Below, in pieces: positions 6,256 through 29,945 of a stretch of 64,000 nucleotides of DNA. The stretch comes from an uncultured Oscillospiraceae bacterium (GTDB lineage: Bacteria > Bacillota > Clostridia > Oscillospirales > Oscillospiraceae), in the NCBI GenBank assembly GCA_947626345.1, contig CANQSF010000010.1, positions 1 through 64,000 of the forward strand, written 5' to 3'. The notes under the pieces are model-generated. The model searched no databases. It was not told the origin of the DNA and saw only the letters and a list, made by a program, of their open reading frames with translations. The translations under genes were made by a program, and so were the position numbers. Position 1 is the first letter of the stretch, and every line of letters begins with the position of its first letter.

Positions 6256-6278
6256 AGATCTCTCCGTCCGCCGTCCCG

Positions 6279-6485: not shown

Positions 6486-6540
6486 GATCGTTTCTCCTTA
6501 TCAGTTAGTGATGATTTGATTTTCGCGCCGGGGCGCCCTA

Positions 6541-6765: not shown

Positions 6766-6790
6766 AACGATTCGCCTTTCTGTTTTTCTA

Positions 6791-6806
6791 TTTCTTGATA
6801 CGTTCC
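6791..6806 (-). promoter_or_regulatory. Cluster promoter-like element before LP11
   Basis: The minus-strand sequence GGAACGTATCAAGAAA matches the shared element before LP2 and LP9. It lies in the 198-base gap between the exporter gene and LP11, about 26 bases from the start codon. The rest of that gap shows no gene. Confidence 0.5.
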
Positions 6807-6963
6807 AGGCGGCCCGGAATTTTTTCAGGCCCCGACGGGTTTTCCCGCGGAGCGCGCAGAGTCCCGGCGGCCACGCGTGCAAATACTTACCGGTTTTTTC
6901 CGACCGTCCTCTCTCTGCCCGCCCAGCGGTTCGGCGATATCTTCCGGCGTCTGCGGCGCGCCT

Positions 6964-11830: not shown

Positions 11831-11869
11831 AATTGATCTCCCCTTGCTGGTTTTTATTTTTTGCTGCAC

Positions 11870-13061: not shown

Positions 13062-13481
13062 TTATGCTTCCAAGCGCTTTTCCACAGTTAGAATGTTCTG
13101 ACCGTCCTTATACTCATAGCGCACGTCGTCCATGGTCTTTTTCACCATGAAGATGCCCAGGCCGCCGATGGGCCGGTCCTCCGCAGAGAGGGTCACGTCC
13201 GGGTCAGCCTTGGCCAAGGGATCGTAGGGCTTGCCGTGGTCGATGAACGTGATGCGCACCGCCAGCGGATCCCGGTCCACGTCCACCCGCACCGTAGCCG
13301 GGCCGGAGGGGTCGTAGGCGTACCGGGCGATGTTGCTGAAAAGCTCGTCGATCGCCACGTCGATCTGCATCTGCGCCTTCATGGGGCAGTCAAGCGTTTC
13401 CAGCCGCTCGTCCACAAAAGCTGTCACCGCCGGGATGTTCTCCAGCGTGGCCTCCACTGTCATCTCGCTGCGATCGTTCAT
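13062..13481 (-). CDS. RsbW/SpoIIAB-like anti-sigma-type serine kinase
   Basis: The 139-residue protein is a single HATPase domain of the RsbW type. The N box (DELFSNIARYAY), the G1 box (DHGKPYDP) and the G2 box (GGLGIFMVKK) are all intact, so ATP binding and Ser kinase activity on STAS proteins are expected. It overlaps the SpoIIE-type phosphatase gene by four bases (ATGA) and precedes the STAS-APH gene. Together these give kinase, phosphatase and two STAS targets, the parts of a partner switch. No matching sigma factor gene is adjacent, so the output is not clear. Confidence 0.9.
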   Translation of the reverse strand: MNDRSEMTVEATLENIPAVTAFVDERLETLDCPMKAQMQIDVAIDELFSNIARYAYDPSGPATVRVDVDRDPLAVRITFIDHGKPYDPLAKADPDVTLSAEDRPIGGLGIFMVKKTMDDVRYEYKDGQNILTVEKRLEA

Positions 13482-15088
13482 TTCATCTTCTCCTTATATT
13501 CCAGGCACAGCATCGTGATGTCGTCGAACTGGGGAGCGTCGCCCACGAAGGCATCGATATCCGCTTTCACCGACGGCAGCAGCTTATCCGGCGCGGCGTC
13601 GGCGTACTTGTTCAGCACCGCCTCCAGCCGCTCCATGCCGTACAGCTCGTTGTGGGCGTTGGTTGCCTCGGTGACGCCGTCCGTGTACTGGAAGATCGCA
13701 TCCCCCGGCTCCATTTGCAGGGATCCCATCTTGTACCGGGTCATGTCCATGCCCGCAAGGACGAACCCGGCTCGAATCTTCTCGGGGGTGTATTTTCCCT
13801 GCCGGCGGATGAACGGCATCTCGTGGCCGGCGTTGACGAAGTTGAACTGGCCGGTCTTCAGGTCCAGCACGCCCTCGAAGGCGGTGATGAACAGCTCCTC
13901 GCCGTTGCCTTCACACAGGAGCTTGTTGACTTCCATGAACACCTCGCCCAAGTCGCGCCCGGGGGTAGTGTGATCCTTGATGAGCGTCTTGCCGATGACC
14001 ATGAACAGCGCCGCGGGCACGCCCTTGCCGGACACGTCCGCCATGACGATCGCCAAGTGGGTATCGTCCACCATAAAGAAGTCATAGAAGTCGCCGCCCA
14101 CCTCCTTGGCCGGGTCCATGGTGGCGTAGATATCCACCTCTGGCCGGTCCGGGAAGGGCGGGAAGATGCAGGGGAGCATGGAGGCCTGGATGTGGGTGGC
14201 GATGTCCAGCTCCGCGCCGATGCGCTCCTTTTCTGCCGTCACCGCCGTCAGGTTGTCGATGTACTGTTTGATCTCCGCCTCCATCTTCAGGATAGAGGAT
14301 GCCAGCACGCCGATCTCGTAACGGTTCTCCGTGGCTTTCAGGGCCGTCACCGGGTTTTCCCCATCGTTGGCGAAACGCTCTGCCTCGCCGGTGATCTCCG
14401 CGATGGGCTGGATCACCTTCCGGTTCAGCCACAGCAGGTAAACCAGCAGCGAAAGGATCACCATCGCCGCCGCGATGGATGTGACCCAGAGGATATAGGT
14501 GCTCCGCGCGCCATAGAGGACGGTCATGGATTTCTCCACGCCGATCACGGCTACCACCTTGCCGGAGGAATCCTTCACCGCCAGGCCTGCCGTGGTGTGC
14601 GCGCCGGACTCGGTATAAGAGTACAGATACTTCTCCGCCCGGCCGCCCGTTGTCAGGATATGCTTCAGGTCGTCCACATAGTTCGGGTCAATGTCCCGGG
14701 AGACATAGCCGAATTCATAGCGGCTGAAGCCTGTGGCCGGGTTGACGGAGTCGTAGATGTAGGTGGTCGTCATGTAATCCGTCTCGTCTATCTTCGCCAC
14801 ATAGATGAAATTACAGTTGCTGCTCACCACCAGCTCGTCGAGACGCGCCAGGATGGCGTCGTACTCCTCGTCCGTCTGCCCCGACTGCAGATACTCATCC
14901 AGTTTGTCCGGGTTCAGATAGGTCAGCGCCGTCTCCGCCACCTCATAGGCGGTGTCGTTATACTGCTGCTCCAGCACATGGGTGAACTGCTGGTAGCCCG
15001 TCACCGCCACGATCACGCTCAGGATCACGATGACTGCCACGATGCTCGCCACCATCACTACCGCCAGTCTGCGGTTCTTCTTTTTCAT
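13478..15088 (-). CDS. Membrane SpoIIE-family protein phosphatase
   Basis: The 536-residue protein has two membrane helices (about 9-30 and 198-218) around an extracellular sensor region of roughly 165 residues. A HAMP-like segment follows, then a PP2C/SpoIIE phosphatase domain (from about residue 300) with metal-binding Asp motifs (EVGGDFYDFF, ADVSGKG, FDDIT). Enzymes of this group remove phosphate from STAS proteins after sensing an outside signal. Its partners would be the STAS proteins at both ends of the operon. Four-base overlaps with the genes on both sides show tight translational coupling. The ligand is unknown. Confidence 0.9.
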   Translation of the reverse strand: MKKKNRRLAVVMVASIVAVIVILSVIVAVTGYQQFTHVLEQQYNDTAYEVAETALTYLNPDKLDEYLQSGQTDEEYDAILARLDELVVSSNCNFIYVAKIDETDYMTTTYIYDSVNPATGFSRYEFGYVSRDIDPNYVDDLKHILTTGGRAEKYLYSYTESGAHTTAGLAVKDSSGKVVAVIGVEKSMTVLYGARSTYILWVTSIAAAMVILSLLVYLLWLNRKVIQPIAEITGEAERFANDGENPVTALKATENRYEIGVLASSILKMEAEIKQYIDNLTAVTAEKERIGAELDIATHIQASMLPCIFPPFPDRPEVDIYATMDPAKEVGGDFYDFFMVDDTHLAIVMADVSGKGVPAALFMVIGKTLIKDHTTPGRDLGEVFMEVNKLLCEGNGEELFITAFEGVLDLKTGQFNFVNAGHEMPFIRRQGKYTPEKIRAGFVLAGMDMTRYKMGSLQMEPGDAIFQYTDGVTEATNAHNELYGMERLEAVLNKYADAAPDKLLPSVKADIDAFVGDAPQFDDITMLCLEYKEKMK

Positions 15089-16728
15089 CTCACTGCCTCT
15101 CCCTTGAAAAAGTCTTTCTGCTCCTGGGTCTGCAGGATGTGGATGGGTTTATTCTGTTCCATGCGATATCCCTTCCCCGCCAGGAATTCACGGTACGCCG
15201 CGAAAGCGCCTTTTTGCAGGGGCAGCACCCGCACATCGCCGATGTGCCCCATCTCCCGGGCGCCCTTATATCCGAAGCAGCTCTCCCGAAGGCAATCGTC
15301 CAGCAGCGTTTCCGCTCCCGCCGGCAGCGCTCCCGTCCTCGGCTCCAGATACACCGAATAGTACGGCGTGGAGCCACGAAAGCCCGTGTCCGCGCAGTAC
15401 CCCTCCAGGGAACAGCCCGAGAGCCGCTCAAATCGCTGCATCGCCTTTTCCATCTGCCGCATATCCATTTTCTCGTCCGCCACGTTGAGCACCTGGCTCT
15501 TCCGGCGGCTCATGCGGATGATCGGCGCCTCGCCGTAGAAGCCCGTCACCTCCACGATATCCCCCATCATATACCGGTAAAGGCCGGACAGGGTGGTGAC
15601 CACCAGCTCGTAGCTCTTCCCGGCCTCCACCTCCCGGAACGTCAGCGTCTGCTCCCCTGTCCCTCCCTCCGGAAGGAACTCAAAGAAGCAGGACTCCGGG
15701 ATCAGCACATAGCGGGCGTCCTCCTCCTTCAGCGTGTAGACCGCGCCCAGGATGCTCTCCGAGGAGGCATAGGCGTAAAAATGGATGGGCAGGTCACCGA
15801 TGAATATGCGTAGCTCATCCATGTACCCCTGGAAGATGCTGCCCCCCGCCATGCGGATGTACCGCAGCTTAGGCCAGATGCGGCGCACGAGCCCGTCGGC
15901 CGCGCCGTTCCCCGCCGCGGCCCGCAGCTCCTCCGCCCGTGCGGGATCGGGGGCGATGCGCTCTTTTATGTAGCGCTTCCACGGATCGCTGATCGCAAAG
16001 CAGCTGCTGACCTCTCCGCTGCCCACATCCTCCACGAAAGCGTCCCAGTGCTCCAGGAGATACTGGAACATCTGCACCACCCCATGCACGAAAACGCCGT
16101 GGATCGCGGTGATATCCCGGCAGGCCAGAGCGAAGCGCAGCCTCACATAGAGCAAGTTCTCCATTTTCTCCGGGAACATCACCTCCCGGGGAGAGGTATA
16201 GGCGGAGAAGTCGATCTCGTCTCTCGATTCCAGCCACCGCATCAGCACGCCGGAGCGCACGCCGTTCATGGTGCCGTCCGGCATGGCGGTGCGGTAAAAC
16301 TCGCCGGTCTCAAAGATCCTGCCAAACAGCTTCTCGTCCGGGAGGCCCGCCAGCTCTTTCCAGATGACGTCCTGCACTGCATCCAACAGGTATATCCGGT
16401 GGACCGTCACATCCCGCTGGGTGATGGGCACATACTTCGGCTGGGAGGTGCTGCCCGCGCTGATGCAGTAGAACACCGGCTCATCGGCTGTCAGAAGCCC
16501 TTTTTCTCCCCCGATCTGGCGCTCTATAAGCGGTTCATAGTCGTCATACCGGGACAGGGGCACCTGCTTTCGGTAGTCCTCTACGGTGCGAAGGCCGGAA
16601 AAGCCCCACTTCTTTCCGTATTCTGTCTGCGCGTTGCGCTCCAGCAGCTCCATCAGGAACCGCTCCTGCACACGGACGGCGTCGCCGCACACGGCCTCCA
16701 TGCGCCGGAGCCCTGTTTCTTCTGTCAT
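15085..16728 (-). CDS. GH3-family acyl-adenylating enzyme
   Basis: The 547-residue protein resembles the GH3 (auxin-responsive promoter) family of the adenylate-forming superfamily: an ATP-loop ISAGSTSQPKYVPIT near residue 90, and later YRYMMGDIVEVTGF and RMSRRKSQVLNVADEKM, where the C-terminal domain begins. Known plant members join amino acids to acyl acids through an acyl-AMP; bacterial ones are mostly uncharacterised. GGAAAGGAAAGT sets the start at 16728; a start six codons earlier is possible. Lying in the exporter operon, it may make or attach a small acid or amino acid, but no substrate can be read from the sequence. Confidence 0.8.
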   Translation of the reverse strand: MTEETGLRRMEAVCGDAVRVQERFLMELLERNAQTEYGKKWGFSGLRTVEDYRKQVPLSRYDDYEPLIERQIGGEKGLLTADEPVFYCISAGSTSQPKYVPITQRDVTVHRIYLLDAVQDVIWKELAGLPDEKLFGRIFETGEFYRTAMPDGTMNGVRSGVLMRWLESRDEIDFSAYTSPREVMFPEKMENLLYVRLRFALACRDITAIHGVFVHGVVQMFQYLLEHWDAFVEDVGSGEVSSCFAISDPWKRYIKERIAPDPARAEELRAAAGNGAADGLVRRIWPKLRYIRMAGGSIFQGYMDELRIFIGDLPIHFYAYASSESILGAVYTLKEEDARYVLIPESCFFEFLPEGGTGEQTLTFREVEAGKSYELVVTTLSGLYRYMMGDIVEVTGFYGEAPIIRMSRRKSQVLNVADEKMDMRQMEKAMQRFERLSGCSLEGYCADTGFRGSTPYYSVYLEPRTGALPAGAETLLDDCLRESCFGYKGAREMGHIGDVRVLPLQKGAFAAYREFLAGKGYRMEQNKPIHILQTQEQKDFFKGEAVR

Positions 16729-16756
16729 ACTTTCCTTTCCCACCATATCGCGTCTG

Positions 16757-18493
16757 TCACAGCACGATCAGAAGCGTGTTCATCCCAAACGTGTCCTGGT
16801 AATCCACCTTCTTCACCAGCTTTTGCAGCATCCGCATGCCCATATAGAGCATGTCGTCGTCCCCGCCATCCCCGGACAGGAGCGGGTCAAACTTTTTCCC
16901 GTTATAGCGGATGCGGATGCCGGTCTCGCTGGGCACGGCGTACACCCGGATGTCAAACAGGATCCGCTGGGGGTCGTTGATGCTCGTGATGAGCGTCATC
17001 ATCTCCTCCAGCGCCAGACTCACCCGCATCACCTGCTTGGCCTGCATCCCGTTTTCCTGGCAGAAATCCGTGATCCTCTCACTGGCCTCGCAGATCTTCT
17101 CGTTATCGCTGATCATGGAGAAGTTGATGACCTGGCCCGCCTTTTCCAGCGTCTGATCCATGAGAAAATACCGGCTGGTCATCTCGCTCCGGCGGTGCAG
17201 GATCCCGGTGATGAGATACCACACACACACCGTGAGCAGTTCGCCCGCCGTGAGGAACAGCCACGGCGTTATCCCGGACGCCAGCAGAGCCAGCAGGCTC
17301 AGCGCCGCGAACACATAGGACTTGAGGATGATGATCAGGTTGGACAGCCCCGCGCGGCCCGAAACGCTGTAATAGGAGGACAGCACGTTGTTCCAAAGGG
17401 AGGGGATCAGGCTGACGGCAAGGCACAGCATAGGCAGCCGCATGGGCTGCGCCAGGCCGTAGGCCGCCGCGATGAGATCCGCGCCCAGCACGATGACCGC
17501 GCCGAAGACAAGGCTGTACAGAACGCCCTTTTTCAGCTCCAGCCGCAGCAGGATGCAGATGCTCTCGTTGTCTTTCTCGCCCCGGTACACGCCCATCATC
17601 GCCGTGCCCGCCTGGGGAACGCCCACCGTCACGGCCTCGGCAAAGGCGCTGATCCCGTTCAGCACGGAAAACTCCGCCAGCATCATGCTGCCGCCGTATC
17701 TCTGCAGCAAGCCATTCACGCACAGAATGCGCAGCGTCTGCACCAGGTTGTTCATCGCGGCCGGACTGCCTGCCGCGGCCAGCTCCCGAAATTCTTCTCT
17801 CCCCGGGATCGCCGGCCCCGGTCTGAAATGGAAAGTGCCGCGGTGAAGACTCATGAAGCCGACAAGGCACGCCGCCGCCGTCGCAATGACGCTGGCCAGC
17901 GCCGCGCCGAACACGCCCAGGTTCAGGCCGTACAGGAATGCGACGTCCAGCGCCACGTTCCCCGCGCCCATGATCGTCATCATCACGGTCACGGTCTTGT
18001 TCTTTCCGTCCAGGCGCAGGTACCAGAATGGGACATACAGAAAGATCTTCGGAAATGCGCCCGCCAGCGTGACAAGCGCATAGTCCTTCACCATGGAAAG
18101 GATCTTTTCATCGCTGCACAGAAAAGCCGCGATCTTATCGATCAGAAGGAGCCCGGCGGCTGTCATGACAACAGAGGAGAGCAGGCAGAGCGTGATCGCA
18201 TAGCGGTAATACATCCCCGCCTTGTCCCTGTGGTTGGCGCCGATCTCCCTGGAACTGCAGATCGCCGCGCCAGACACGAAAAAGGAGCCGGCGATGCAGA
18301 GGATCAGATAGACCGGCACGCAGAGATTGATGGCCGCAAGGCCCCCCGCTCCGATCTTCTGGCCTACCAGGACTCCGTCCGCGATGATATTGACGCAGCC
18401 GCTCAAAATCGACAACATCCCCGGCCAAAGCGCCGCGCGGTATGTCTTTCCCAGAAACTCCTCGCTCTGTACCAGGATGTTCTCCTCTTCCAT
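16757..18493 (-). CDS. MATE-type transporter fused to RsbW-like domain
   Basis: The 578-residue protein begins with twelve-helix MATE/polysaccharide-flippase-type membrane segments (about residues 15-430). A soluble C-terminal domain of about 130 residues follows, with the layout of an RsbW-like HATPase (LALEEMMTLITSI as N-box position, YNGKKFDPL as G1, LYMGMRMLQKLVKKV as G2). The N-box Asn is missing and the G1 Asp is replaced by Asn, so the domain may bind a STAS protein or nucleotide without kinase activity. The gene follows the STAS gene by 17 bases. A transporter gated by a partner switch is a reasonable inference. Confidence 0.8.
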   Translation of the reverse strand: MEEENILVQSEEFLGKTYRAALWPGMLSILSGCVNIIADGVLVGQKIGAGGLAAINLCVPVYLILCIAGSFFVSGAAICSSREIGANHRDKAGMYYRYAITLCLLSSVVMTAAGLLLIDKIAAFLCSDEKILSMVKDYALVTLAGAFPKIFLYVPFWYLRLDGKNKTVTVMMTIMGAGNVALDVAFLYGLNLGVFGAALASVIATAAACLVGFMSLHRGTFHFRPGPAIPGREEFRELAAAGSPAAMNNLVQTLRILCVNGLLQRYGGSMMLAEFSVLNGISAFAEAVTVGVPQAGTAMMGVYRGEKDNESICILLRLELKKGVLYSLVFGAVIVLGADLIAAAYGLAQPMRLPMLCLAVSLIPSLWNNVLSSYYSVSGRAGLSNLIIILKSYVFAALSLLALLASGITPWLFLTAGELLTVCVWYLITGILHRRSEMTSRYFLMDQTLEKAGQVINFSMISDNEKICEASERITDFCQENGMQAKQVMRVSLALEEMMTLITSINDPQRILFDIRVYAVPSETGIRIRYNGKKFDPLLSGDGGDDDMLYMGMRMLQKLVKKVDYQDTFGMNTLLIVL

Positions 18494-18510
18494 GCTCTTT
18501 GATCCTCTTA

Positions 18511-18807
18511 CTATTCGATGGTCAGGATATCCGCGAAGCCTGTGACCTCAAAGATCTCCATGATCGTCTCGTTCACGTTTTTGATCACCATGGAACCTTG
18601 CCGGTTCATGACCTTCTGGGCGCTGAGAAGCACGCGCAGTCCCGCGGAGGACAGGTACTCCAGCCCAGAGAAGTCCATCACCAGCTCCGTGACGCCATTC
18701 GCGCTCTGCTTCAGTTCCGCCTCCAGCTGCGGCGCAGTGGTGGTGTCCAGCCGGCCTTCCAGGGCCAGATCCAGATGGGAACCATTCTGGTTTTTCGTGA
18801 TAGTCAT
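18511..18807 (-). CDS. STAS-domain anti-sigma factor antagonist
   Basis: The 98-residue protein is a single STAS domain of the SpoIIAA/RsbV type, with the Ser pair at 53-54 (LEYLSSAGLRVLL) that RsbW-like kinases phosphorylate. The start at 18807 is preferred because GGGAG lies eight bases upstream; an ATG two codons earlier is too close to it. It is the first gene of the long minus-strand operon ending with the exporters. A leader of about 200 bases separates it from its promoter-like element and contains a 17-base inverted repeat. Confidence 0.9.
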   Translation of the reverse strand: MTITKNQNGSHLDLALEGRLDTTTAPQLEAELKQSANGVTELVMDFSGLEYLSSAGLRVLLSAQKVMNRQGSMVIKNVNETIMEIFEVTGFADILTIE

Positions 18808-18891
18808 GTTCATATCTCCCTTTGATATATATATTCTTGTTTCTGCCTGACGGCAGGGTTCAGACTGTGACCCCCTCCGGGGCAATCATTT

Positions 18892-19090: not shown

Positions 19091-20479
19091 TCAAACGTTC
19101 TCCGGCATATTCAGCCGGATGCGGGAGGTAAACATATTATTCTCGGCATCATATCGAAACTTGGCGCTCCCACCATATTTCTGCGCGGCCTGGGCGATGC
19201 TCCGAAGCCCATATCCCCCCGTCTTTCTGCTTAGAAACGACTCTGCGGGCAGGAAACCGTCCTCAGTCTGCATCCGGCGGCCCAGGCGCACGCCATCGCA
19301 GGCATTGGATATCTCGATGGCGAGGGACCTGTTCACTGTGCCGACACTCACGTTGATCCATCGGTTCTGGCCGCACCTCCTGCAGGCGTTGACTGCGTTT
19401 TCCAGAGCGTTGCCAAACACCACCGTCAGGTCCGTGGGGTCGATGGTCACCTTGTCGCACTGGGCGTGGATGTCGCACCGAATACCCTCGTCCCGAGCCA
19501 CGCCCGCATAGTATTGCAGCAGCCCGTTGATCACCATGTCCTTACAGTAGACCTCATTTATACGCTTGGTTGCAGCTTCCAGCACCTGGGACAGATAGCC
19601 CCTCATCTCCTCCAGCCGGCCTTCCCGAAGCATCTCGTTCAAGGCGCTATAGTGATGGCGCAGGTCATGGCTCATCCGCCGGGTGTTCTCCATTTCGCTG
19701 GCAATTTTTTCATACTGCAGCTTCTGGATCTCCAGGGCACGCTGGTGGTCATTGTCACGTTTACGCCACACGGACTCCCGAAAGATCAGCCAGTAGATCA
19801 CCAGCTGGTACAGCAACGTCATCAGAAGCTGTGGCAGCTCACGCACATACTCCCGGTATCCCAAACGGTAGTAGCGGACGTCGGCCGCCATCATCATCAG
19901 CAGGAAAACCACCGTGGTCACCGCCAGTATAAAGAACTCCTGGCGCATCTTCTTCGTCTCTATCTCCTGGAGATACTCGCTCAGCGGCCGGATCACCAGA
20001 AGCAGCATCAACGGCAGCAATATCACCGTCGTGACTGCGTACACTGCCAGCCCGCGGAGGGAATATACAGACCAGTTCTCCAACTCCTGGGACAGCGGGA
20101 TCACTCTGGCTGCGGCACCGAGCAGCATATTCACCACCCAGTACTGGGTCACGCCGTAAAACACCACTGCAAACACGACCATGGTCTTTTTGATCGGGGC
20201 CTCCCGCACCAGCCAGCCCTGGGCGATGAGCGTGAGCAGTATGACGGCGGCCATGAAGATGTTAGCGGCCATCGCTATGGTTCCCTGCTGCGCCACTGCG
20301 TACATCGCGGCCGGGAACAAGGCCGACAGCCCTGTTCCCGCTGCCACCTCCCCGAAAAGGACCTGCTTTTTCTGGAAACGGTACGCTTCTTCGGGAAAGG
20401 GCAGAAAGACCATCATCACACAGGGGAATATCTCAAGAAAGAAGCCGGCGGCGTTGCGCAGATATACACCTATGCCCAT
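19091..20479 (-). CDS. AgrC-like membrane sensor histidine kinase
   Basis: The 462-residue protein has about six membrane helices in the first 220 residues. A cytoplasmic kinase follows, with the H box MSHDLRHHYS (His near residue 269) and a GHKL ATPase domain (N box NALENAVNAC, later GGYGLRSIAQ). This is the layout of peptide-sensing AgrC-type kinases. It overlaps the LytTR regulator gene by ten bases. The regulator and exporter neighbours suggest that it senses a peptide, possibly one exported by this cluster. No AgrB or AgrD gene was found nearby. Confidence 0.9.
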   Translation of the reverse strand: MGIGVYLRNAAGFFLEIFPCVMMVFLPFPEEAYRFQKKQVLFGEVAAGTGLSALFPAAMYAVAQQGTIAMAANIFMAAVILLTLIAQGWLVREAPIKKTMVVFAVVFYGVTQYWVVNMLLGAAARVIPLSQELENWSVYSLRGLAVYAVTTVILLPLMLLLVIRPLSEYLQEIETKKMRQEFFILAVTTVVFLLMMMAADVRYYRLGYREYVRELPQLLMTLLYQLVIYWLIFRESVWRKRDNDHQRALEIQKLQYEKIASEMENTRRMSHDLRHHYSALNEMLREGRLEEMRGYLSQVLEAATKRINEVYCKDMVINGLLQYYAGVARDEGIRCDIHAQCDKVTIDPTDLTVVFGNALENAVNACRRCGQNRWINVSVGTVNRSLAIEISNACDGVRLGRRMQTEDGFLPAESFLSRKTGGYGLRSIAQAAQKYGGSAKFRYDAENNMFTSRIRLNMPENV

Positions 20480-21207
20480 GGCCGATCCTCCGAAAAACTC
20501 TTTCGCCGGGAAAGCTGCTCGAACACATAATCGTCATAAGCCGCACGGATGGCGGCGCTCTGCCGCACCGCGATGGGCAGCTGGGCACCGTCCTGCAAAG
20601 CGCAGGTGTTCGCTCCCATCTGCGCGATGTAGTCCATGTTGACGATGATCCCTCTGTTGATCCGTAAAAAGCTCCCGCCCAGCTTTTGTTCCAGTTCACT
20701 AAAAGGTTTCCAGACCTTCAGCCGCCGCCCATCGGACAGGGAGATGGTCACGACATGATTATCACCTTCAAGTAAGTAGATCTGATCCAAAAACACCGTG
20801 ATACGGTTTGTTCCCACGGCGAAGGAGATCGTCTCCCTCTGTTTTCTACGGAGCTCCGTCAGCCGGCGGAAGGCTTCCACCACACCCTGGGTGGTCACCG
20901 GCTTGACCAGATAATGCAGTGCGTTCAGGGAAAACGCATCCACCGCGTGCTCCGTGCTGGTGGTGACGAAGGCGATCCCCGTCTCAGGGGATATCTCCCG
21001 CAGCGCCTTGGCGATGTCCACGCCGTTTTCCCCAGGCATATAGATGTCCAAAAATGCGATATCGAAATCGGGCACGCCCTTCGCTGCCTCCAACAGCGAG
21101 GCGCCGTCCAGAAATTTCTCCGCTTTCCTCGTCGGGTCCCATCCCTGTAAGGCTTTCTCGAAATGCTCCAACTCCAGCGGGTCATCATCACAGACTGCGA
21201 TCCGCAT
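20470..21207 (-). CDS. LytTR-family response regulator
   Basis: The 245-residue protein has a receiver domain (acidic cluster CDDD, phospho-Asp D54 in AFLDIYMP, Lys in LVKPV) and a C-terminal LytTR DNA-binding domain from about residue 130 (LLEGDNHVVTISLSDGR, LRINRGIIVNMDYI). LytTR regulators bind pairs of 9-base direct repeats about 21 bases apart, upstream of the -35 box. Just such a pair lies before this gene's promoter (21495-21532) and before the M13 peptidase promoter. GAGGAGG seven bases upstream sets the ATG at 21207. The untranslated leader of about 240 bases holds repeated hairpins. Confidence 0.92.
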   Translation of the reverse strand: MRIAVCDDDPLELEHFEKALQGWDPTRKAEKFLDGASLLEAAKGVPDFDIAFLDIYMPGENGVDIAKALREISPETGIAFVTTSTEHAVDAFSLNALHYLVKPVTTQGVVEAFRRLTELRRKQRETISFAVGTNRITVFLDQIYLLEGDNHVVTISLSDGRRLKVWKPFSELEQKLGGSFLRINRGIIVNMDYIAQMGANTCALQDGAQLPIAVRQSAAIRAAYDDYVFEQLSRRKSFSEDRPWA

Positions 21208-21299
21208 AGACACACCTCCTCACAGCGGGTCCCAGACAATAACGCCTGCGATCATTTCCATTCGCTCGTCAATATAGTGGTGAACACACATATTTTTGA

Positions 21300-21461
21300 T
21301 TATACTATGTCGCGCGGTTCCGATGTCAGTCGGGAGCGCGACCGGTATTCTGGGATATAATAGCGGTTTCGACGCTATTATACCATGTCGCGCGGTTCCG
21401 ATGTCAGTCGGGAGCACGACCGGTATCTTTTCGGTATAATGCCGTTACAACGTCATTATAA
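21300..21461. repeat. Composite hairpin repeat element (two GGTTCCG units)
   Basis: Two hairpins at 21309-21342 and 21387-21420 share the pattern stem-GGTTCCGA-loop-TCGGGAG-stem. The outer stem of the first (GTCGCGC/GCGCGAC) pairs perfectly; the second has one mismatch. Between and after them lie AT-rich hairpins: TATAATAGCG/CGCTATTATA at 21356-21382 and a TATAATG/CATTATA pair at 21435-21460. A related element occurs at 40167-40282 with a different but still pairing outer stem. Here the element lies in the untranslated leader of the LytTR regulator gene. The whole gap 21208-21639 holds no gene. Confidence 0.7.
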
Positions 21462-21484
21462 CATACCGACCGGGATTGCCTCAA
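21455..21484 (-). promoter_or_regulatory. Candidate promoter of the regulator-kinase operon
   Basis: On the minus strand, TTGAGG at 21479-21484 and TATAAT at 21455-21460 are separated by 18 bases. The transcript would have a leader of about 240 bases before the LytTR gene. The tandem repeat at 21495-21532 lies ten bases upstream of the -35 box. Confidence 0.55.
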
Positions 21485-21494
21485 TGCGACAGGC

Positions 21495-21532
21495 TTGACG
21501 TTTTCGAAGTCAAACCTGACTTTTTCGAAATC
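21495..21532 (-). promoter_or_regulatory. Tandem 21-bp repeat, candidate LytTR operator (regulator gene)
   Basis: Read on the minus strand, two copies of the unit GATTTCGAAAACGTCAGGTTT (with small changes: AAAAAGTCA and GACTTCG) follow each other with a 21-base period. This is the spacing of LytTR-family direct repeats. The pair stands just upstream of the candidate promoter of the LytTR gene itself, so autoregulation is likely. The same pair, better conserved, is at 23749-23785. Confidence 0.6.
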
Positions 21533-21639
21533 CTGCCCTTGATATAGCAAAAACAGAGGCCATCCTATGCCAGGATGACCTCTGTACAATTGGTGGTTTG
21601 CGCCGTATCCTGAACCGGCTCAACAATACTTGGACACCG

Positions 21640-23658
21640 TCACCAGATGCCCACCCGGTCCTCAGGGGCCACGTACATGCCGTCGCCCTCCTGGACGTCA
21701 TAGGCCGTATAGAACGCGTCGGTGGCACTCACCACCGCGTTGACCCGGACGGAGTCGGGGGAGTGAGAGTCCAGACGGATCAGGTAATCGAAATACTCCT
21801 GGGATTCCTTCACGGCCCACACCTGCGCCCAGGCGGTGAACAGCTCCTGCAGAGCCTCAGGGTCGTCCCCGCACAGCTCCGTCACGCAGTGCATGGCGCC
21901 CAGGTCAGCGATGTTCTCGGTCAGGGTCAGGTTCCCGTTGACGGTGACGCCGTCCAGCACCTCGTAATTGTCATAGTAATCGACGATGTCCTGCTGCAGC
22001 GCCGTAAAGTTGGCGTAATCCTCCTCGGTCCACCACATGTTCAGGTTGCCGTTCTCGTCGAAGTTGGCGCCGGAGCTGTCGAAGGCGTGGGTCAGCTCAT
22101 GGCCGATGACCGCGCCGATGCCGCCCAGATGGGCCGCCCGGCTGGCCTCCGGATCGAAGAACGCGCCACGAATAATGCCGGCGGGGAACACGATCTCGTT
22201 GGCGGTGGGGCTATAGTAGGCGTTCACAGTCTGCGGCGTCATGCTCCAGGCGGCCTTGTCCACTTCCTCGCCCAGCTGGCTATAGTTGTAAGCGGTGATG
22301 GCCCGGAACAGATTCAGCTGGTTCTCGATAAGGCTCCCGCCGTCCGCCGGGGACACATACTCCACATCGTCCAGATAGGCCACGAAATCATAGCTGTCGG
22401 GATAGCCGATCTTCACGGTCATGGTGTCCAGCTTCTTCTTGGCGGCCGCCTTGGTCTCGTCGCCCATCCAGTCCAGCTCGTCGATGCGCCCGGCGAACCA
22501 GTCCAGGATCTCGTTGACGATGTCCAGTACTTCCTGCTTGCTGTCTTCGGAGAAATACTTCTCCACATAGATCTTGGCAAAATCCCACTCCAGATCCGAC
22601 TGGACCGCGCTCTTGGCTGCCTCAGGCAGTTCTTTGGGCGTGACGCCGTTCATGGCAGAGGAGTAGTCCAGCGCCGCTTGCCGGTAGTCCATGCTCACAT
22701 AAGAGGACATGTCCTTGAGCAGCGTGGCGACGGAGAAGTCCTTCAGCACCGGCAGATTCTCTTCGGTGAGCGCCTGGCCGATGGCCTCCAACTGGCCTCG
22801 ATCCACCACCAGGAACTGCTCCGCGCCGGACACCTGGTGCGCCTCCAGCACCGGCGCCAGATCAATGGTGGGCAGCAGCGCGGCCACCTCGTCCATGCTC
22901 ATGGGGAGGTACGCCTTGGAATAATCGTGCATATCCTCCTCGGACAGCGACGGGCCGGCCAGCTGGGTCTGCAGGGCAAAGATGGCCTCGGTCTTGTCGG
23001 CGGCCTCCTCCTCGCTCAAGCCGTACAGCACGAACAGCTCCGTGATGAACGTCTTATAGAGATCCCAATAGGGGGACATACTCTCGTCCTCCAGGTATTC
23101 CTTGCCCAGCCCCAGATCCGCCTGACCCACATAGGCGGTATAGTGGTTGGAATCATACAGATCTGTTCCCACGCCGAAGGACAGCAGGCTCGTATAGCCC
23201 AGCTCGCCGCCCAGGGAGGCGAGCGCCTCCACATATTCCTGAACGGTCCCGGCCTGCTCGATGGCGTCCAGATAGGGGCGCAGCGGCTCGATACCGGTGG
23301 CGTTGCGGCTGTCCTCGTCCACATAGGACAGGTACAGGTCCGCGATCTTCTGCTCCGGGGTCCCCTTTTCATAGGTCCCGGCGTTGGCCACGCACTCGTC
23401 CACGATCTCGTTCAGCTCGTCGGTAATCTCCAGATCGTTCTCGGTGAAGGCGTCCCAGGCCGCGTAGCCCACGGGGATCTCCACCTCGCCCAGCCGGTCA
23501 AAGTTCACATAGGCGTACAGGTCGTCCTCCGGCGAAGGCTTGGTCTCCGGCAGGAAATCCAGAATGCCGTCGTCCTCCTCCGAAGCGAAGGCCGTACCAC
23601 AGCACCCCAGCACCAACACCAGCGCCAGCACAAAGGCAAGTATGCGTTTTGCTCTCAT
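21640..23658 (-). CDS. Secreted M13-family metallopeptidase (neprilysin/PepO type)
   Basis: The 672-residue protein has a signal peptide (MRAKRILAFVLALVLVLGCCGTA) and the M13 zinc site: HELTH near residue 520, the downstream Glu in LTENIADLGA, and the substrate motif NAYYSPTANEIVFPAGI. The C-terminal DSHSP and the end of the family (VGIW) are complete. M13 enzymes cut oligopeptides of up to about 40 residues, outside the cell here. It carries the same operator repeat as the neighbouring LytTR regulator and is probably controlled by it. It may mature or degrade exported peptides. The cysteine in the signal region leaves a lipoprotein anchor possible. Confidence 0.92.
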   Translation of the reverse strand: MRAKRILAFVLALVLVLGCCGTAFASEEDDGILDFLPETKPSPEDDLYAYVNFDRLGEVEIPVGYAAWDAFTENDLEITDELNEIVDECVANAGTYEKGTPEQKIADLYLSYVDEDSRNATGIEPLRPYLDAIEQAGTVQEYVEALASLGGELGYTSLLSFGVGTDLYDSNHYTAYVGQADLGLGKEYLEDESMSPYWDLYKTFITELFVLYGLSEEEAADKTEAIFALQTQLAGPSLSEEDMHDYSKAYLPMSMDEVAALLPTIDLAPVLEAHQVSGAEQFLVVDRGQLEAIGQALTEENLPVLKDFSVATLLKDMSSYVSMDYRQAALDYSSAMNGVTPKELPEAAKSAVQSDLEWDFAKIYVEKYFSEDSKQEVLDIVNEILDWFAGRIDELDWMGDETKAAAKKKLDTMTVKIGYPDSYDFVAYLDDVEYVSPADGGSLIENQLNLFRAITAYNYSQLGEEVDKAAWSMTPQTVNAYYSPTANEIVFPAGIIRGAFFDPEASRAAHLGGIGAVIGHELTHAFDSSGANFDENGNLNMWWTEEDYANFTALQQDIVDYYDNYEVLDGVTVNGNLTLTENIADLGAMHCVTELCGDDPEALQELFTAWAQVWAVKESQEYFDYLIRLDSHSPDSVRVNAVVSATDAFYTAYDVQEGDGMYVAPEDRVGIW

Positions 23659-23708
23659 GGTCGATATGTCTCCCTTCTTCAGCAGCTATCCGCTGCCGTA
23701 TTGTAATG

Positions 23709-23737
23709 ATTTTACCATCTCATTTGGACTTCTGCAA
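23709..23737 (-). promoter_or_regulatory. Promoter of the M13 peptidase gene
   Basis: On the minus strand TTGCAG (23732-23737) and TAAAAT (23709-23714) are 17 bases apart, a good housekeeping promoter. It lies 50 bases upstream of the start codon and 11 bases downstream of the tandem repeat. Confidence 0.65.
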
Positions 23738-23748
23738 TGGGCGTATAC

Positions 23749-23785
23749 TGACGTTTTCGAAATCAAACCTGACGTTTTCGAAATC
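23749..23785 (-). promoter_or_regulatory. Tandem 21-bp repeat, candidate LytTR operator (peptidase gene)
   Basis: Two perfect copies of TGACGTTTTCGAAATC (plus-strand reading) are spaced 21 bases apart and end 11 bases before the -35 box of the M13 peptidase promoter. The match to 21495-21532 and the LytTR-like spacing suggest one regulator for both. From here to 24024 no gene or further structure was recognised. Confidence 0.6.
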
Positions 23786-24597: not shown

Positions 24598-24672
24598 TTT
24601 CCCGCCCTCAATTTGGGGCGTTTTTATTTCACAGAAATGGCGTTTCCGGCTCAAGTTTTCATCTTTGTCACC

Positions 24673-25185
24673 ATGATTGAAGAATTTGAAAGACATTTGA
24701 AAGGTACAAACCTCTCAGAAAACACCACTACTTCGTATCTCTTTGCTGTAAAGCAATTCAGCGAACGATATGACAGTGTGACGAAGCGCAATCTCAAGGA
24801 GCACAAAACTTGGCTGATTGAAAGCTACAAACCCAGGACAGTCAACCTCCGTATCCGGGCAATTAATTGTTACTTGGAGAGCATCGGAAAGGAAGCGTGG
24901 AAATTATCTTCCGTTAAGATCCAGCAAAAGGCGTTTTTGGAGAACGTGATCAGCGAAGCGGATTATACTTACTTCAAGAACTGTCTAAAGCGGGACAACA
25001 ATATGCTATGGTACTTTGTTGTCCGTTTCCTTGCCGCCACCGGGGCCAGAGTCAGCGAACTGGTACAAATCAAGGTAGAACATATTAGGTTGGGACATCT
25101 CGATCTATACTCCAAAGGAGGCAAGCTCCGGCGTATCTACATTCCCATAGGAAAAGCTAATACGAATTTGGCCCATTGCTATTAG
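24673..25185 (+). pseudogene. Truncated tyrosine recombinase
   Basis: About 170 residues remain of an integrase that normally has about 290 or more. The N-terminal core-binding domain is whole (FERHLKGTNLSENTTTSYLFA). The catalytic domain has its first Arg (AATGARVSELVQIKVEHI) and the beta-hairpin Lys (SKGGKLRRIYIP). The reading frame then ends in NTNLAHCY, before the His-x-x-Arg, His and the Tyr nucleophile. It therefore cannot recombine DNA. A perfect inverted repeat (CTATTAGA/TCTAATAG, 25179-25202) lies across the break point. The loss was probably caused by arrival of the next element or by deletion. Confidence 0.8.
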
Positions 25186-25202
25186 ATGTTCCTGTCTAAT
25201 AG
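25179..25202. repeat. Inverted repeat at the recombinase break point
   Basis: Perfect 8-base arms CTATTAGA and TCTAATAG surround eight bases, right where the tyrosine recombinase gene is cut off. It may be the end of an inserted element or a weak hairpin. Confidence 0.4.
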
Positions 25203-25486
25203 CACTAGTCTCGTCACGTTCTGGCTTTTTTCTCTGACTTCCCGACGGATTTCGACAAATTCCGCAGAGAGGGAAAACTAAAATGGTTTTGCGCGAGGGA
25301 ACGCCCCTGCTGGGGTGTGAATCGTCAGAGCAAGATTCTACCATGGGCCCAAAATTCGCTCCGCGCTCATTTTTGTCCCACGGGATCTTGTTGGGGAGTG
25401 CCTTCCCCAAACCTTGCTTGTCGGCCTCGCGGCATTCGCCGTTCGGTGCTCGCATTCGCTCGCTTGTTGCAAAGGAGGATCGGCCC
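25203..25486 (+). other. Non-coding gap before mobC, candidate oriT region
   Basis: No gene was seen in these 284 bases. The stretch holds short inverted repeats, including CCCC-tgct-GGGG near 25305 and TTGGGGA-gtgcct-TCCCCAA at 25391-25410. In mobilizable elements with mobC followed by a MobP relaxase, the nick site often lies in such a gap. The exact nick site cannot be read by eye. Confidence 0.35.
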
Positions 25487-25885
25487 ATGCCGAAAAAGTA
25501 CAACACGCCCCATCGGAGCATGACCGTGAAAACGCGGCTGACCAGAGAGGAATATGCCACCTTCGCGGAAGTCGCAGCTTTGTGCGGCGTCAGCAAAGCC
25601 GCGTTCATCCGCAAGGCCATCACCGGCGCGACGCTCAAGCCCACTATCGTGATCACGGCGGTGAATGATGAGCTGCTGAAAAAGCTGGATGACCTCATCG
25701 CGCAATATGGAAAGATCGGCGGCAATCTCAATCAAATCGCACGGCGTCTGAACGAGTTTGGATCTCCTTATGCCGACTTGGAAAAAGAGGTCCGGGACGC
25801 AGCCGTTGATCTCGCCATGCTGAAGTATGAAGTTCTGGAAAAGGTGGCGGCAACCGTTGGCAACATTCAAACACATAAGCTCTAA
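25487..25885 (+). CDS. mobC: MobC-type mobilization protein
   Basis: The 132-residue protein has an N-terminal ribbon-helix-helix-like part (MTVKTRLTREEYATFAEVAALCGVSKAAFIRKAI) and the MobC signature GGNLNQIARRLNEFG near residue 80. MobC helps the relaxase to open DNA at oriT. AAAGGAGGATCGGCCC precedes the ATG at 25487. Its last 29 bases overlap the relaxase gene in another frame, an arrangement common in this element type. Confidence 0.9.
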   Translation: MPKKYNTPHRSMTVKTRLTREEYATFAEVAALCGVSKAAFIRKAITGATLKPTIVITAVNDELLKKLDDLIAQYGKIGGNLNQIARRLNEFGSPYADLEKEVRDAAVDLAMLKYEVLEKVAATVGNIQTHKL

Positions 25886-27395
25886 AAACGCCCGGTACAG
25901 CGACGCGGAGAAGTATCTGCTTTTCGAGCATGACGAGTTCACCATGAAGCCCATTCTGGATGAAAGCGGGCGGCTCATTCCGCGCCAGGATTACCGCATT
26001 GCCGCGCTCAACTGTGAGGGCCAGGATTTTGCCATTGCCTGCATGAGAGCGAATCTGCAATATGGCAAGAACCTGGATCGGGGCGATGTGAAAAGCCACC
26101 ACTACATCATCAGCTTTGACCCGCGGGACAGTGCAGATAACGGCCTGACCGTGGACCGGGCGCAAGAGTTGGGCGAGCAGTTTTGCCGTGACCATTTCCC
26201 CGGCCACCAGGCGCTGGTCTGCACCCACCCGGACGGCCACAACCACACCGGCAACGTCCATGTACATATCGTCATCAACAGTCTGCGGATCGAGGATGTC
26301 CCCATGCTGCCGTACATGGACCGGCCCGCTGATGTGAAGGCCGGGATGAAGCACCGCTGCACCACCGCGGCAATGGACTACTTCAAGGCCGAAGTCATGG
26401 AGATGTGCCACCGGGAGGGACTATACCAAGTTGACCTTCTGAATGGCAGCGAGGATCGAGTCAATGACCGGGAGTATTGGGCGCAGAAAAAGGGGCAAGC
26501 CAAACTGGACAAAAGCGGCAAGCCCACCAAGTTTGAAACGGACAAGGAGAAACTGCGAAAAATCATCCGTAAAGCGTTGGAGACGGCCACCACATTTGAC
26601 GAGTTTTCCGAGTTGCTTCTCTGTGAGGGCGTGACAGTCAAGGAGAGCCGGGGCCGTCTATCCTATCTCTCGCCGGACAGAGCGAAATCCATCACAGCCC
26701 GAAAGCTGGGCGACGCCTATGATCTTGCGGCAGTGAATGAGATGTTTACACAAAACGCACTGAAGCAGCCTGTGCGCCACAGCGTTCTGGACAAACTCCG
26801 GGAGGCCGGGAGCGTCCAGCGGCTCGTGGACATAGATACTAAACGCGCCGAAGGGAAGGGTGTCGGCTATGAAAAGTGGGCGCAGAGATTCAATCTCCAG
26901 CAGATGGTCAACACCTTGAACGCATATACCGATTACGGCTTTGCTTCTATGGACGAGTTGAACGAGTGGTTGTCTGCCGCCCGGAGCGAATTGCAAGAGA
27001 GCCGGGAAAAACTCAAATCCATTGAAACTGTCCTCACCGGGAAGAAAGAACTGAAAAAGCAACTTTTGACTTATTGGGAAACGAAGGATGTCCGGCAAGA
27101 ATACAAGGCACTGAAAACAGCCAAGGCCAGGGCTGAATACGCCCAGGCGCATGAACGTGAGTTCAAGCTGTCCAACGCCGCCGCCAAGTATTTCAAGGAC
27201 CACGGTATCACCAAGCTGCCCAGCACCAAGGCCCTGCAAGCGGAGATACAGCAACTCATATCGGAAAAGAACGCCCGGTACAAAGACTACCGAGAGAAGC
27301 AGCGGCGAGTGAAGGAACTGGAAACCGTGAAGAGCAATCTGGAGAACATACTGGGCCACAAGAAAGAGAAGCGCCATGAGCTTATTCCATCTTGA
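25857..27395 (+). CDS. MobP-type relaxase
   Basis: The 512-residue protein is a relaxase of the MobA/MobL-like group: an N-terminal region with KSHHYIISFDP (about residue 80), the three-His metal site (HPDGHNHTGNVHVHIVINS near 130-148), then a long charged coiled-coil tail (360-500). The TTG at 25857 gives the usual family start (ATFKHISSKNARYS) and has AAGGTGG upstream; an in-frame ATG ten codons earlier is less likely. It would nick oriT and lead the strand into a recipient, using a helper conjugation system, since no transfer genes are present. Confidence 0.9.
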   Translation: MATFKHISSKNARYSDAEKYLLFEHDEFTMKPILDESGRLIPRQDYRIAALNCEGQDFAIACMRANLQYGKNLDRGDVKSHHYIISFDPRDSADNGLTVDRAQELGEQFCRDHFPGHQALVCTHPDGHNHTGNVHVHIVINSLRIEDVPMLPYMDRPADVKAGMKHRCTTAAMDYFKAEVMEMCHREGLYQVDLLNGSEDRVNDREYWAQKKGQAKLDKSGKPTKFETDKEKLRKIIRKALETATTFDEFSELLLCEGVTVKESRGRLSYLSPDRAKSITARKLGDAYDLAAVNEMFTQNALKQPVRHSVLDKLREAGSVQRLVDIDTKRAEGKGVGYEKWAQRFNLQQMVNTLNAYTDYGFASMDELNEWLSAARSELQESREKLKSIETVLTGKKELKKQLLTYWETKDVRQEYKALKTAKARAEYAQAHEREFKLSNAAAKYFKDHGITKLPSTKALQAEIQQLISEKNARYKDYREKQRRVKELETVKSNLENILGHKKEKRHELIPS

Positions 27396-27813
27396 CCTGC
27401 TCCCGCCTGTTGAGCGGAAGCCGGACGGGTCTCTCCCCAGAATGAACGGTAGACAGCGCCAGCGGGCCGTCACGCTCATCCGCAAGCTGTGCAGTGCCTG
27501 TGATACTGGCAACTGCCTTTACCTGGATGACGGTGAGGAAGTCCCGTGTCCGCAGACGCTATCCTACTCTGTCTGTTGCAAGGTCTTTCGCTGGGTGTTG
27601 CTGAAGGACAGAGAAGGACAAGCTCTGGAAACAGAGCTATTCGGCAAGGACACCATGAAGCGGTGCGCGATCTGCGGCAGAGCGTTCATACCTGGCTCCA
27701 ACCGGGCGAAATACTGTGACGGTTGCAGAGCCATAGCCCAGCGGCGGCAAAAGGCGGAGTACGCCAAACGACGCCGGGCGAATAGTAGAACGATAGAGCA
27801 GCAAAGTCCCTGA
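27376..27813 (+). CDS. Cysteine-rich VLP-type element protein
   Basis: The 145-residue protein matches the small Cys-rich proteins found next to relaxases in Clostridial elements: MNGRQRQRAVTLIRKLC, then GNCLYLDDGEEVPCPQ and SYSVCCKVFRWVLL. A C-terminal zinc-finger-like part follows (KRCAICGRAF, AKYCDGCR) with a basic end. It overlaps the relaxase gene by 20 bases. Its role is unknown; binding to DNA or RNA at mobilization is plausible from the cysteine pairs and basic tail. Confidence 0.75.
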   Translation: MSLFHLDLLPPVERKPDGSLPRMNGRQRQRAVTLIRKLCSACDTGNCLYLDDGEEVPCPQTLSYSVCCKVFRWVLLKDREGQALETELFGKDTMKRCAICGRAFIPGSNRAKYCDGCRAIAQRRQKAEYAKRRRANSRTIEQQSP

Positions 27814-27987
27814 ATCTGCAAGGCTTTCCGGGCGCAAAACTCGGAAGGGTGGTATAAAGCCTCACGCGCTGGGATACAGGCATTTTGTTTGGCCAAGGAA
27901 TACGGATGTTGTGGCGTTTCTGTTCCCTGCTTCCTGGCTTCCTGAAGAAACGATTTTATTGAAGAAAATACGAAGGAGAAAACTATT

Positions 27988-28260
27988 ATGAGTGGTAAAG
28001 ACAAGCCTGTTGATCTGAATGCCTGCTATGAACCCATAATCAAGCCTCCCAAGCGGCTTCTGAAGGAGTGGGAGGACGGGCCGAAGCCTACGCCGGAGAA
28101 CGCATCATATACTTTCCGGGACATCGACGGGACCGAGCATTTCTGCTGCGGCGACACCAACATCGCAGTTTCCGAACATTTCCGGCCTGCCGGGAAACAG
28201 CCGGAGGAACTGATCGAAGATGTGATCCAGTACGCCGCGAGAACGAACCGCGATAGTTGA
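27988..28260 (+). CDS. Small element-encoded protein of unknown function
   Basis: A 90-residue protein with AAGGAGAAAACTATT before its ATG. The N-terminal half is Pro/Lys-rich (PIIKPPKRLLKEWEDGPKP). The second half reads YTFRDIDGTEHFCCGDTN and SEHFRPAGKQPEELIEDVIQYAA. The second half faintly recalls the small TnpW-like proteins of such elements (xGTxYxVxxHF, then a helix), but the match is weak. It lies between the Cys-rich protein and the serine recombinase gene. Confidence 0.6.
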   Translation: MSGKDKPVDLNACYEPIIKPPKRLLKEWEDGPKPTPENASYTFRDIDGTEHFCCGDTNIAVSEHFRPAGKQPEELIEDVIQYAARTNRDS

Positions 28261-28338
28261 AACTGCCCCGCGCTTGTCGTATAATAGGGACGGCAAGTAT
28301 TGTAAGCGTGGGTTGTTTCTCTTGGAAGGAGGTTTATT

Positions 28339-29945
28339 TTGAAACAACCGTACAATACCGCACTATACATGAGATTGAGCCGTGATGACGAAAACTACGG
28401 CGACAGCGTGAGCATTGAAACGCAACGCACCATCGGCAATATGCCCGCGAGAACGGCCTGAACGTCATAGGCGAATATGTGGATGACGGCTGGAGCGGGA
28501 CGAATTTCGAGCGTCCGAGTTTTCAGCGGATGATGGACGATGTGGAGACCGGCAAGATCAACTGCATCGCCACCAAGGATCTGAGCCGCTTCGGGCGGGA
28601 ACATGTGATGATGGATTATTATCTGGAATTTGTGTTCCCGGAAAAGCACATCCGCTACATAGCCGTGACAGAGAACGAGGACACCGAAAAGGGCCTGTCC
28701 GATTTCGTCCCTTTTAAGAACCTGTTCAATGAGTGGTTTGCCAAGGACACCAGCCGAAAGGTGAAAGCGGCCCTCCGGGCCAAGCACGCCGCAGGACAGC
28801 GGAGCTTCACCTACGCGCCTTTGGGATACATCCGGCACCCGGAGATCAAAAACGCCCTCGCCATCGACGAGGAAACGAAGTGGATCGTTGAGAAGATATT
28901 TGATCTCGCTGTGCATGGAGCAGGCGCCGCGAAAATCACGAAGGCGCTGATTGCAGAAAAGATACCCACCGCAGGCTACCTCAACTACAAGCGATACGGC
29001 ACCTTTGCCAACATCTACGCCGGAGCGCCGGAGGAAAAGTCCTACGCCTGGACGATCTCGCAGGTGAAGTCCATTCTCCGGGACGAGACGTATATCGGCA
29101 ACAGCGTCCACAACAAGCAGACCAACCTCTCCTATAAGAACAAGAAGCGTGTCCGCAAACCGCCGGAGGAATGGGTCCGGGTGGAGAACACCCAGGAGGC
29201 CATCATCAGCCGGGACGTGTTTGAGCAGGTGCAGCAGCAGATCGCCGGACGGCGCAGGCAGATGAAAGACGCCACCACGCAGATTTTCGCCGGATTATTG
29301 AAGTGTGCCGATTGCGGATGGTCCATGAGTTTTGCCACGAACAAGCAGAACATTGTACCATATAGCTACTTTAACTGCACATCCTACCGGCAGTTCGGCA
29401 AAGAACGCTGTTCGTCACATTACATCCGCTATGACGTTCTGTATGCCTATGTGCTGGGCCGCATCCGCTACTGGTCGCAGCAGGCCAGACAGGGAAAAGA
29501 ACAGCTCCTTCAGCGGCTGTTGGCAAGCGGGAGCGTGGAACTTGCGGCAGCGGCAAAGAAACGTCGGGCGGAGCTGATAAAAGCGGAGAAGCGGCAGGCC
29601 GAGGTGGACAGGCTGTTCACCAAGCTGTATGAGGACTGGTCCGCCGAGCGCATCACAGGTTACAACTTCAATATGCTGTCGCAAAAGTACCAGACGGAGC
29701 AGCAAGAGCTTTTGGAGAAGATAGAGCGGTTGAAAGCAGAACAGGCGTCCGAGCAGCAGTCCGCCGACGATGCCGAGAGATGGGTCAAGCTGATCCAAAA
29801 ATATGCCGACCCCACGGAACTGACAGCCGAACTTCTGAACGCCCTGATAGAGAAGATCGTGGTACATGAGGCAGTCAAAGACGAGACTGGCCACCGGGAG
29901 CAGAAAGTGGATATCTACTATCGCTTCGTAGGTAAAATCGACTGA
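28339..29945 (+). pseudogene. Large serine recombinase broken by a frameshift
   Basis: The gene starts with TTG at 28339 after GGAAGGAGG. It codes for the catalytic start of a resolvase (YNTALYMRLSRDDENYG, with the active Ser in RLSRDD). Near 28430-28445 the frame breaks and stops at 28459-28461. The remaining 488 codons (from VIGEYVDDGWSGTNFERP onward) are open in another frame to 29945 and include the resolvase domain, the recombinase domain (APLGYIRHPE) and the zinc-ribbon (CADCGWSM). Related sequences suggest that four bases are missing between ATC and GGCAATAT. If real, the element cannot excise itself. Confidence 0.8.

Follow-up and report, generated by a model that had tools for sequence, protein, structure and literature searches.

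Streptococcal peptide systems of the BlpRH and ComDE type use peptides with double-glycine (GG) leaders and a C39 exporter. BlpRH/GSP (gallocin) and ComDE-type regulons combine a LytTR regulator, a kinase and secreted peptides, and one common operator of about 30 bp lies just 5' of the −35 element of their targets; the site bound by BlpR in S. gallolyticus is 30 bp long, contains (C/T)GAC repeats and lies at this place (PMC8545106). A survey of LytTR regulatory systems, among them HdrRM and BrsRM of Streptococcus mutans, which show positive autoregulation and have bacteriocin targets, described direct repeats most of which have a spacing of 12 bp and which strongly favour a position 10 bp 5' of the −35 element (PMC6193735). 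The agr system (AgrC/AgrA) likewise has a LytTR response regulator, a GHKL kinase and tandem direct repeats 5' of its promoters. NHLP/Nif11 export systems have TIGR03796/TIGR03797 exporters and paralogous families of GG-leader peptides (Haft, 2010; PMC2887384), and the term 'regulator' is absent from the main text of that paper. Searches of the open-licence literature gave no recognised description of LytTR regulons that include an NHLP exporter or that target an M13 peptidase.

The window analysed here is the whole 64,000-nucleotide stretch at positions 1 to 64,000 of contig CANQSF010000010.1 from an uncultured Oscillospiraceae bacterium. It contains a cluster of about 23 kb (0.3–23.7 kb), absent from the entry of an earlier note on this DNA, with its main genes on the minus strand.

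21640–23658, minus strand: M13 (neprilysin/PepO-type) endopeptidase, 672 amino acids (Pfam PF05649, PF01431)
20470–21213, minus strand: LytTR response regulator, REC and LytTR domains (PF00072, 58.5 bits; PF04397, 41.2 bits)
19091–20479, minus strand: sensor histidine kinase with a GHKL HATPase_c_5 domain and about six TM-like stretches
18511–18885, minus strand: STAS protein
16757–18493, minus strand: MATE transporter with a C-terminal RsbW-type ATPase domain (the RsbW part under the Pfam cut-off)
15085–16746, minus strand: GH3-family protein
13478–15088, minus strand: SpoIIE-type phosphatase
13062–13481, minus strand: RsbW-like anti-sigma ATPase
11870–13048, minus strand: STAS-APH fusion protein
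11354–11869, minus strand: short HlyD-like protein, 171 amino acids (TIGR03794, 35.7 bits, cut-off 156.2)
9172–11346, minus strand: NHLP-type ABC exporter containing a C39 peptidase, ABC1 (TIGR03796, 945.8 bits, cut-off 853.3)
6964–9159, minus strand: NHLP-type ABC exporter, ABC2 (TIGR03797, 730.2 bits, cut-off 709.4)
307–6882, minus strand: about ten small GG-leader peptide genes with larger genes between them, e.g. 375–563, 2477–2686, 3450–3719, 3683–3886, 3918–4115, 4112–4279, 4291–4596 (Nif11-like), 4630–4866, 6279–6485 and 6541–6882

Both exporters exceed the cut-offs of the two NHLP models. The HlyD-like protein covers positions 1–49 of the 421 of TIGR03794, short of a full-length HlyD partner, and, as the partner of a Gram-positive exporter, appears truncated. 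With a profile of the GG-leader peptides, all strong matches in the genome fell in the cluster and one weak match elsewhere. Unlike the NHLP/Nif11 systems, the cluster holds no recognised modification enzyme, and the leaders score just under the Nif11 cut-off (TIGR03798, 30.3 bits, cut-off 32.3). The peptide cores are rich in CxxC pairs and resemble small zinc ribbons (e.g. 3450–3719, 4630–4866 and 6541–6882), and the neighbours 3918–4115 and 4112–4279 have a common core, KSVII...GGKTGGTV. A Sel1-repeat protein (643–2472) and an exported papain-like/C39_2-like protein (2653–3456, weak Pfam matches) lie among the peptide genes. Within the cluster, the STAS, SpoIIE, RsbW-like and MATE-RsbW genes form a partner-switch module (13062–18885), and a mobile element adjoins the cluster (24613–29945; relaxase at 25827–27395 and large serine recombinase at 28479–29945).

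Both domains of the regulator score above the curated cut-offs. Its LytTR signature reads FLRINRG against the published FhRhHRS (PMC4227749); F, R and R are kept, H is replaced by N and S by G, and this was counted against the model. The regulator adjoins the kinase in nearly all complete loci of relatives. The kinase had been called AgrC-like in the earlier note, which holds for the type of kinase domain but not for the locus: in agr, agrB and agrD stand beside agrC and agrA, whereas there is no agrB here, the genome's one AgrB is encoded on contig C37, in a region shared with a different LytTR regulator, and the peptides are of the GG-leader type. The BlpH/ComD-type kinases are the better analogue. 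GG-leader peptides, a C39 exporter, a GHKL kinase, a LytTR regulator and operators common to the locus are all present, as in a Blp/Com-type locus, with the limit that the operators of this genome precede the M13 and regulator genes only. Unlike in the streptococcal BlpRH/ComDE systems, the exporter is of the NHLP type, an M13 peptidase is among the putative targets, STAS/SpoIIE/RsbW genes lie alongside and the host belongs to an uncultured gut lineage of Clostridia. Unlike in HdrRM and BrsRM, the regulator carries a receiver domain and is partnered by a histidine kinase. On this comparison, the best model is a peptide circuit like Blp/Com and not a genuine Agr system, and the proposed connection with peptide sensing gains strength from the peptide precursors and the C39/NHLP exporter in the same cluster.

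LytTR half-sites follow the consensus [TA][AC][CA]GTTN[AG][TG]. Two tandem pairs of such half-sites were located in the window, together with the following promoter elements.

23749–23785, minus strand: operator pair 1, 5' of the M13 peptidase gene; 9-bp half-sites AACGTCAGG (23768–23776) and AACGTCAGT (23747–23755) with a 12-bp spacer
23709–23737, minus strand: promoter of the M13 gene, TTGCAG-N17-TAAAAT, the −35 element beginning 11 bp past pair 1
21553–21585, minus strand: intrinsic terminator 3' of the M13 gene, with a 15-bp stem and a T tail, just before pair 2
21496–21532, minus strand: operator pair 2, 5' of the LytTR regulator gene; half-sites AAAGTCAGG (21515–21523) and AACGTCAAG (21494–21502)
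21455–21484, minus strand: promoter of the regulator unit, TTGAGG-N18-TATAAT, the −35 element 11 bp past pair 2

The two 37-bp pairs are identical at 35 of 37 positions and have a 21-bp period; read on the minus strand they are GATTTCGAAAA[A/C]GTCAGGTTTGA[C/T]TTCGAAAACGTCA. The unit TGACGTTTTCGAAATC has four matches in the window with up to three mismatches, against 0.20 expected from dinucleotide shuffles, and four were reached in none of 100 shuffles. If AACGTCAGG is taken as the half-site, the gap between half-sites is 12 bp and the second half-site ends 9 bp 5' of the −35 element. Each half-site matches eight of the nine positions of this LytTR consensus, and both pairs consist of two 9-bp direct half-sites with a 12-bp spacer close 5' of a −35 element, the arrangement of a LytTR operator. 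The distance to the gene start is about 90 bp for pair 1 and M13 and about 290 bp for pair 2 and the regulator. The terminator closes the M13 gene, so that this gene and the regulator unit are probably separate transcription units. The earlier note had described the same pairs: its coordinates for pair 1 are exact, those for pair 2 are one base off at the start (21496), and the 21-base period, the common orientation and a −35 box 10–11 bases downstream were borne out, the distance being 11 bp for both. It had also named the regulator as the next gene, which is correct for pair 2, although the start codon lies behind a repeat-bearing leader. The stretch between the regulator promoter and the start codon (21280–21480) contains the dispersed repeat GTCGCGCGGTTCCGATGTCAGTCGGGAGCGCGACC twice; this repeat, which is unrelated to the operator, matches the genome at about 20 places, several of which are in tandem on contig C19.

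A search of the whole genome for the pair, as had been proposed earlier, returned two pairs in the 2.59 Mb, each of them lying in a promoter of the present cluster, and a looser pattern likewise gave two. Since the genome holds two pairs only, the pair is no simple repeat. A position weight matrix (PWM) was built from 42 sites of other genomes, with the present genome excluded. The window sites scored 75.1 (pair 2) and 62.9 (pair 1), and the members of the training set 51–81. The next-best scores in the window were −7.9, for a register-shifted overlap with the same operator, and −14 for an independent place; shuffled windows peaked at −20 on average and at −9.6 at most. No further operators were found in this window-wide scan, e.g. 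none before the STAS gene or the peptide genes; the lack of an operator directly 5' of the peptide genes in this genome was counted against the model.

The genus was searched with the pair pattern and its spacing to TTGA in 35 genomes, nearly all of them fragmented metagenome assemblies, which was also counted against the model. Between two and 13 sites per genome were found in each of eight genomes, and the reversed pattern gave zero matches in each of the 35. An ortholog of the regulator (about 57–89% identity, some cut at contig ends) is present in exactly these eight operator genomes, while the best regulator match in the remaining genomes has about 25–38% identity. The operator is thus found in 8/8 regulator-positive genomes versus one decayed site among 27 negatives (Fisher's exact p = 3.8e-7, with G034 counted against and the kinship among the eight genomes ignored), and it lies 5' of the regulator gene in all eight. 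The site in G034 (L107), which occurs without an ortholog, was considered as a counter-example; it is altered, and its surroundings yielded no remnant of a regulator. A match in G019 has three mismatches and looks like chance, and an in-frame TGA in regulator orthologs, considered as recoding, is an earlier natural stop a few residues short of the query.

The M13 protein has an N-terminal export signal, both M13 domains and intact HELTH and ENIAD motifs (HExxH and ExxxD). In regulator-positive genomes the operator precedes six of eight M13 copies (G000, G012:C19, two in G014 and two in G033); the other two (G012:C50 and G009:C113) lie behind another gene and were counted against the model. Three regulator-less genomes carry M13 orthologs that are 92% (G029), 92% (G025) and 83% (G008) identical to the window protein, and no operator was found at their promoters (best PWM scores anywhere in the fetched stretch −33.7, −33.7 and −26.4, respectively); an ordinary TTGATT...TATAAT is visible instead in G029 and G025. 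These orthologs serve as a natural control and provide the strongest evidence that the M13 promoter is wired to the regulator. The kinase of L178 (labelled Monoglobus) is directly followed by an M13 gene, a second link between the two-component system and M13, and the M13 genes of this locus have no operator copy of their own. Two M13 peptidases with apparent N-terminal S-layer-homology segments, judged by eye, are seen there (L178:8268–12711).

The computed regulon comprises 59 sites in nine genomes, taken from the fetched regions with a pattern lacking the −35 requirement; the gene starts of relatives were assigned by a simple script. Both −35 and −10 hexamers occur at the expected spacing at 53 of the 59 sites, and a −10 hexamer in a control window shifted by 12 bp at 20 of 59. 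Of the two hexamers the −10 gives the cleaner result, as the −35 element belonged to the pattern that located most of the regions. Four pairs do not have the usual −35 element: L099 (G033:C9:21020), L108 (G026:C2:90311), L126 (G030:C3:38317) and L131 (G014:C22:21150). Past these pairs an AT-rich stretch is followed, by eye, by an apparent dGTPase–primase–sigma factor order. In relatives the operator also lies directly 5' of GG-leader peptide genes (G009:C12, G009:C59, G026:C2 and G030:C3) and before STAS/MATE/GH3/SpoIIE genes (G014 and G033), the STAS gene having its own copy in two relatives. MATE transporters, exported proteins, SDF transporters and AIM24 are among the other genes so preceded. 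A row of GG-leader peptides follows the regulator in G026:C61 and G030:C14.

A contig scan of other Clostridia gave about 55 loci with the regulator at 52–91% identity, many of them in 'Lapin' metagenome-assembled genomes (MAGs) labelled Oscillospiraceae, Lachnospiraceae, Monoglobus, Gemmiger and others. STAS, SpoIIE, RsbW, HlyD and NHLP exporter genes recur around the regulator and kinase in the loci of relatives. The class-A pair is found 5' of the regulator in many loci. About half of the more distant orthologs have no recognizable class-A pair, which was counted against the model, and the operator assignment therefore rests on the nearer half. In a sequence-free test, about 24 of the 55 upstream regions had 21 bp as their best repeat period, a count far above that of any other single period. 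In random stretches of the same loci, 21 was the best period in 14% (score of at least 12 in 3%), so that the excess is less extreme than against a flat expectation; the raised baseline is perhaps due to coding triplets. Diverged operator classes were recognised in L188, L189, L191 and L192 (CACGAATGGT, 21-bp period, 5' of the regulator), in L194 and L195 (TTCGTAAAAATCA, 20-bp period) and in L178 (GCGTGAAATG, 21-bp period). The three tested classes fit the regulator tree with as few changes as possible: the operator sequence varies with the tree and the 21-bp period is mostly kept.

Comparison with relatives, through co-occurrence, the held-out profile and the M13 promoters, strongly supports the earlier proposal that the pairs are LytTR-type operators, and it shows that they almost certainly belong to a single regulator that would control the peptide-making and export cluster. 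That the M13 gene is a target, as also suggested earlier, finds similarly strong support in the co-occurrence with the regulator and in the operator-less orthologs; given these and the change of the operator with the regulator tree, direct control of the peptidase gene by the regulator is very probable. The full model, in which the pairs are the operators of the regulator, the regulator activates, the kinase senses a peptide and M13 acts on exported peptides, was given a probability of roughly 0.82. A dimer of the regulator (20470–21213) would bind the two 9-bp half-sites, 12 bp apart on one helix face. Bound just 5' of the −35 element, a position that is observed, it would activate RNA polymerase. 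Pair 2 would drive the regulator–kinase unit, giving positive autoregulation, with read-through probably serving the genes behind it, and pair 1 would drive the self-contained exported M13 gene with its own terminator. The kinase would sense an outside signal, most likely a GG-leader peptide cut and exported by the C39/NHLP transporter. The same signal would induce M13, which most likely degrades or trims exported peptides extracellularly, either to shut the signal off by feedback or to protect the cell against its own peptides or those of rivals. Of all the steps, this role of the peptidase is the least certain.

It is possible, though we consider it doubtful, that the pairs are the operators of the regulator while M13 serves more generally as an exported or nutritional enzyme and the signal for the circuit is something other than a self-made peptide. 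The M13 orthologs of regulator-negative genomes use other promoters, so that M13 has a circuit-independent role, and the regulon of relatives includes genes with no clear peptide link, such as the SDF transporters and AIM24. Against this reading, a C39 exporter and about ten GG-leader peptides form the core of the cluster, and in G009, G026 and G030 peptides of this kind come immediately after the operator. Repression from the pairs in place of activation is improbable: the pair sits 5' of the −35 element and not over it, which is the published place of LytTR-family activators (PMC6193735, PMC8545106).

Two further explanations concern the identity of the pairs. With seven LytTR domains in the genome, six of them beyond the neighbouring regulator and over the Pfam cut-off, another LytTR protein might bind them; we regard this as very unlikely, since the operator and an ortholog of the neighbouring regulator go together over the 35 genomes (a comparison made for this regulator alone), the operator precedes its gene in every regulator-positive genome and the operator sequence follows the tree of that gene. 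The near-identity of two pairs only 2.2 kb apart could also mean that they are remnants, without regulatory meaning, of a mobile repeat or of a promoter duplication. This reading is scarcely credible and is already contradicted by the comparative data: the likeness stops at the pair edges, the genome has two copies only, the distance to the −35 element is conserved over the 59 sites and no pair precedes M13 where the regulator is absent.

The mixing in the regulator tree of MAGs carrying different family labels suggests horizontal spread, wrong binning of MAGs being a possible alternative. A wider proposal, rather unlikely in its entirety, is a horizontally spread peptide-signalling system of gut Clostridia in which one LytTR regulon would join GG peptides and NHLP export to a signal-induced extracellular M13 peptidase, which would clear the peptide and so end the signal outside the cell, and to a STAS/RsbW/SpoIIE partner switch, the operators diversifying into private codes with mostly kept 21-bp geometry. 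The analysis provides a clear operator and a computed regulon for a system of peptide export in uncultured gut Clostridia, of which no description was found in the open-licence literature. The system allows a direct test of an exported M13 peptidase as a signal-induced off-switch, and its divergent operator classes are a natural data set on how LytTR DNA specificity changes.
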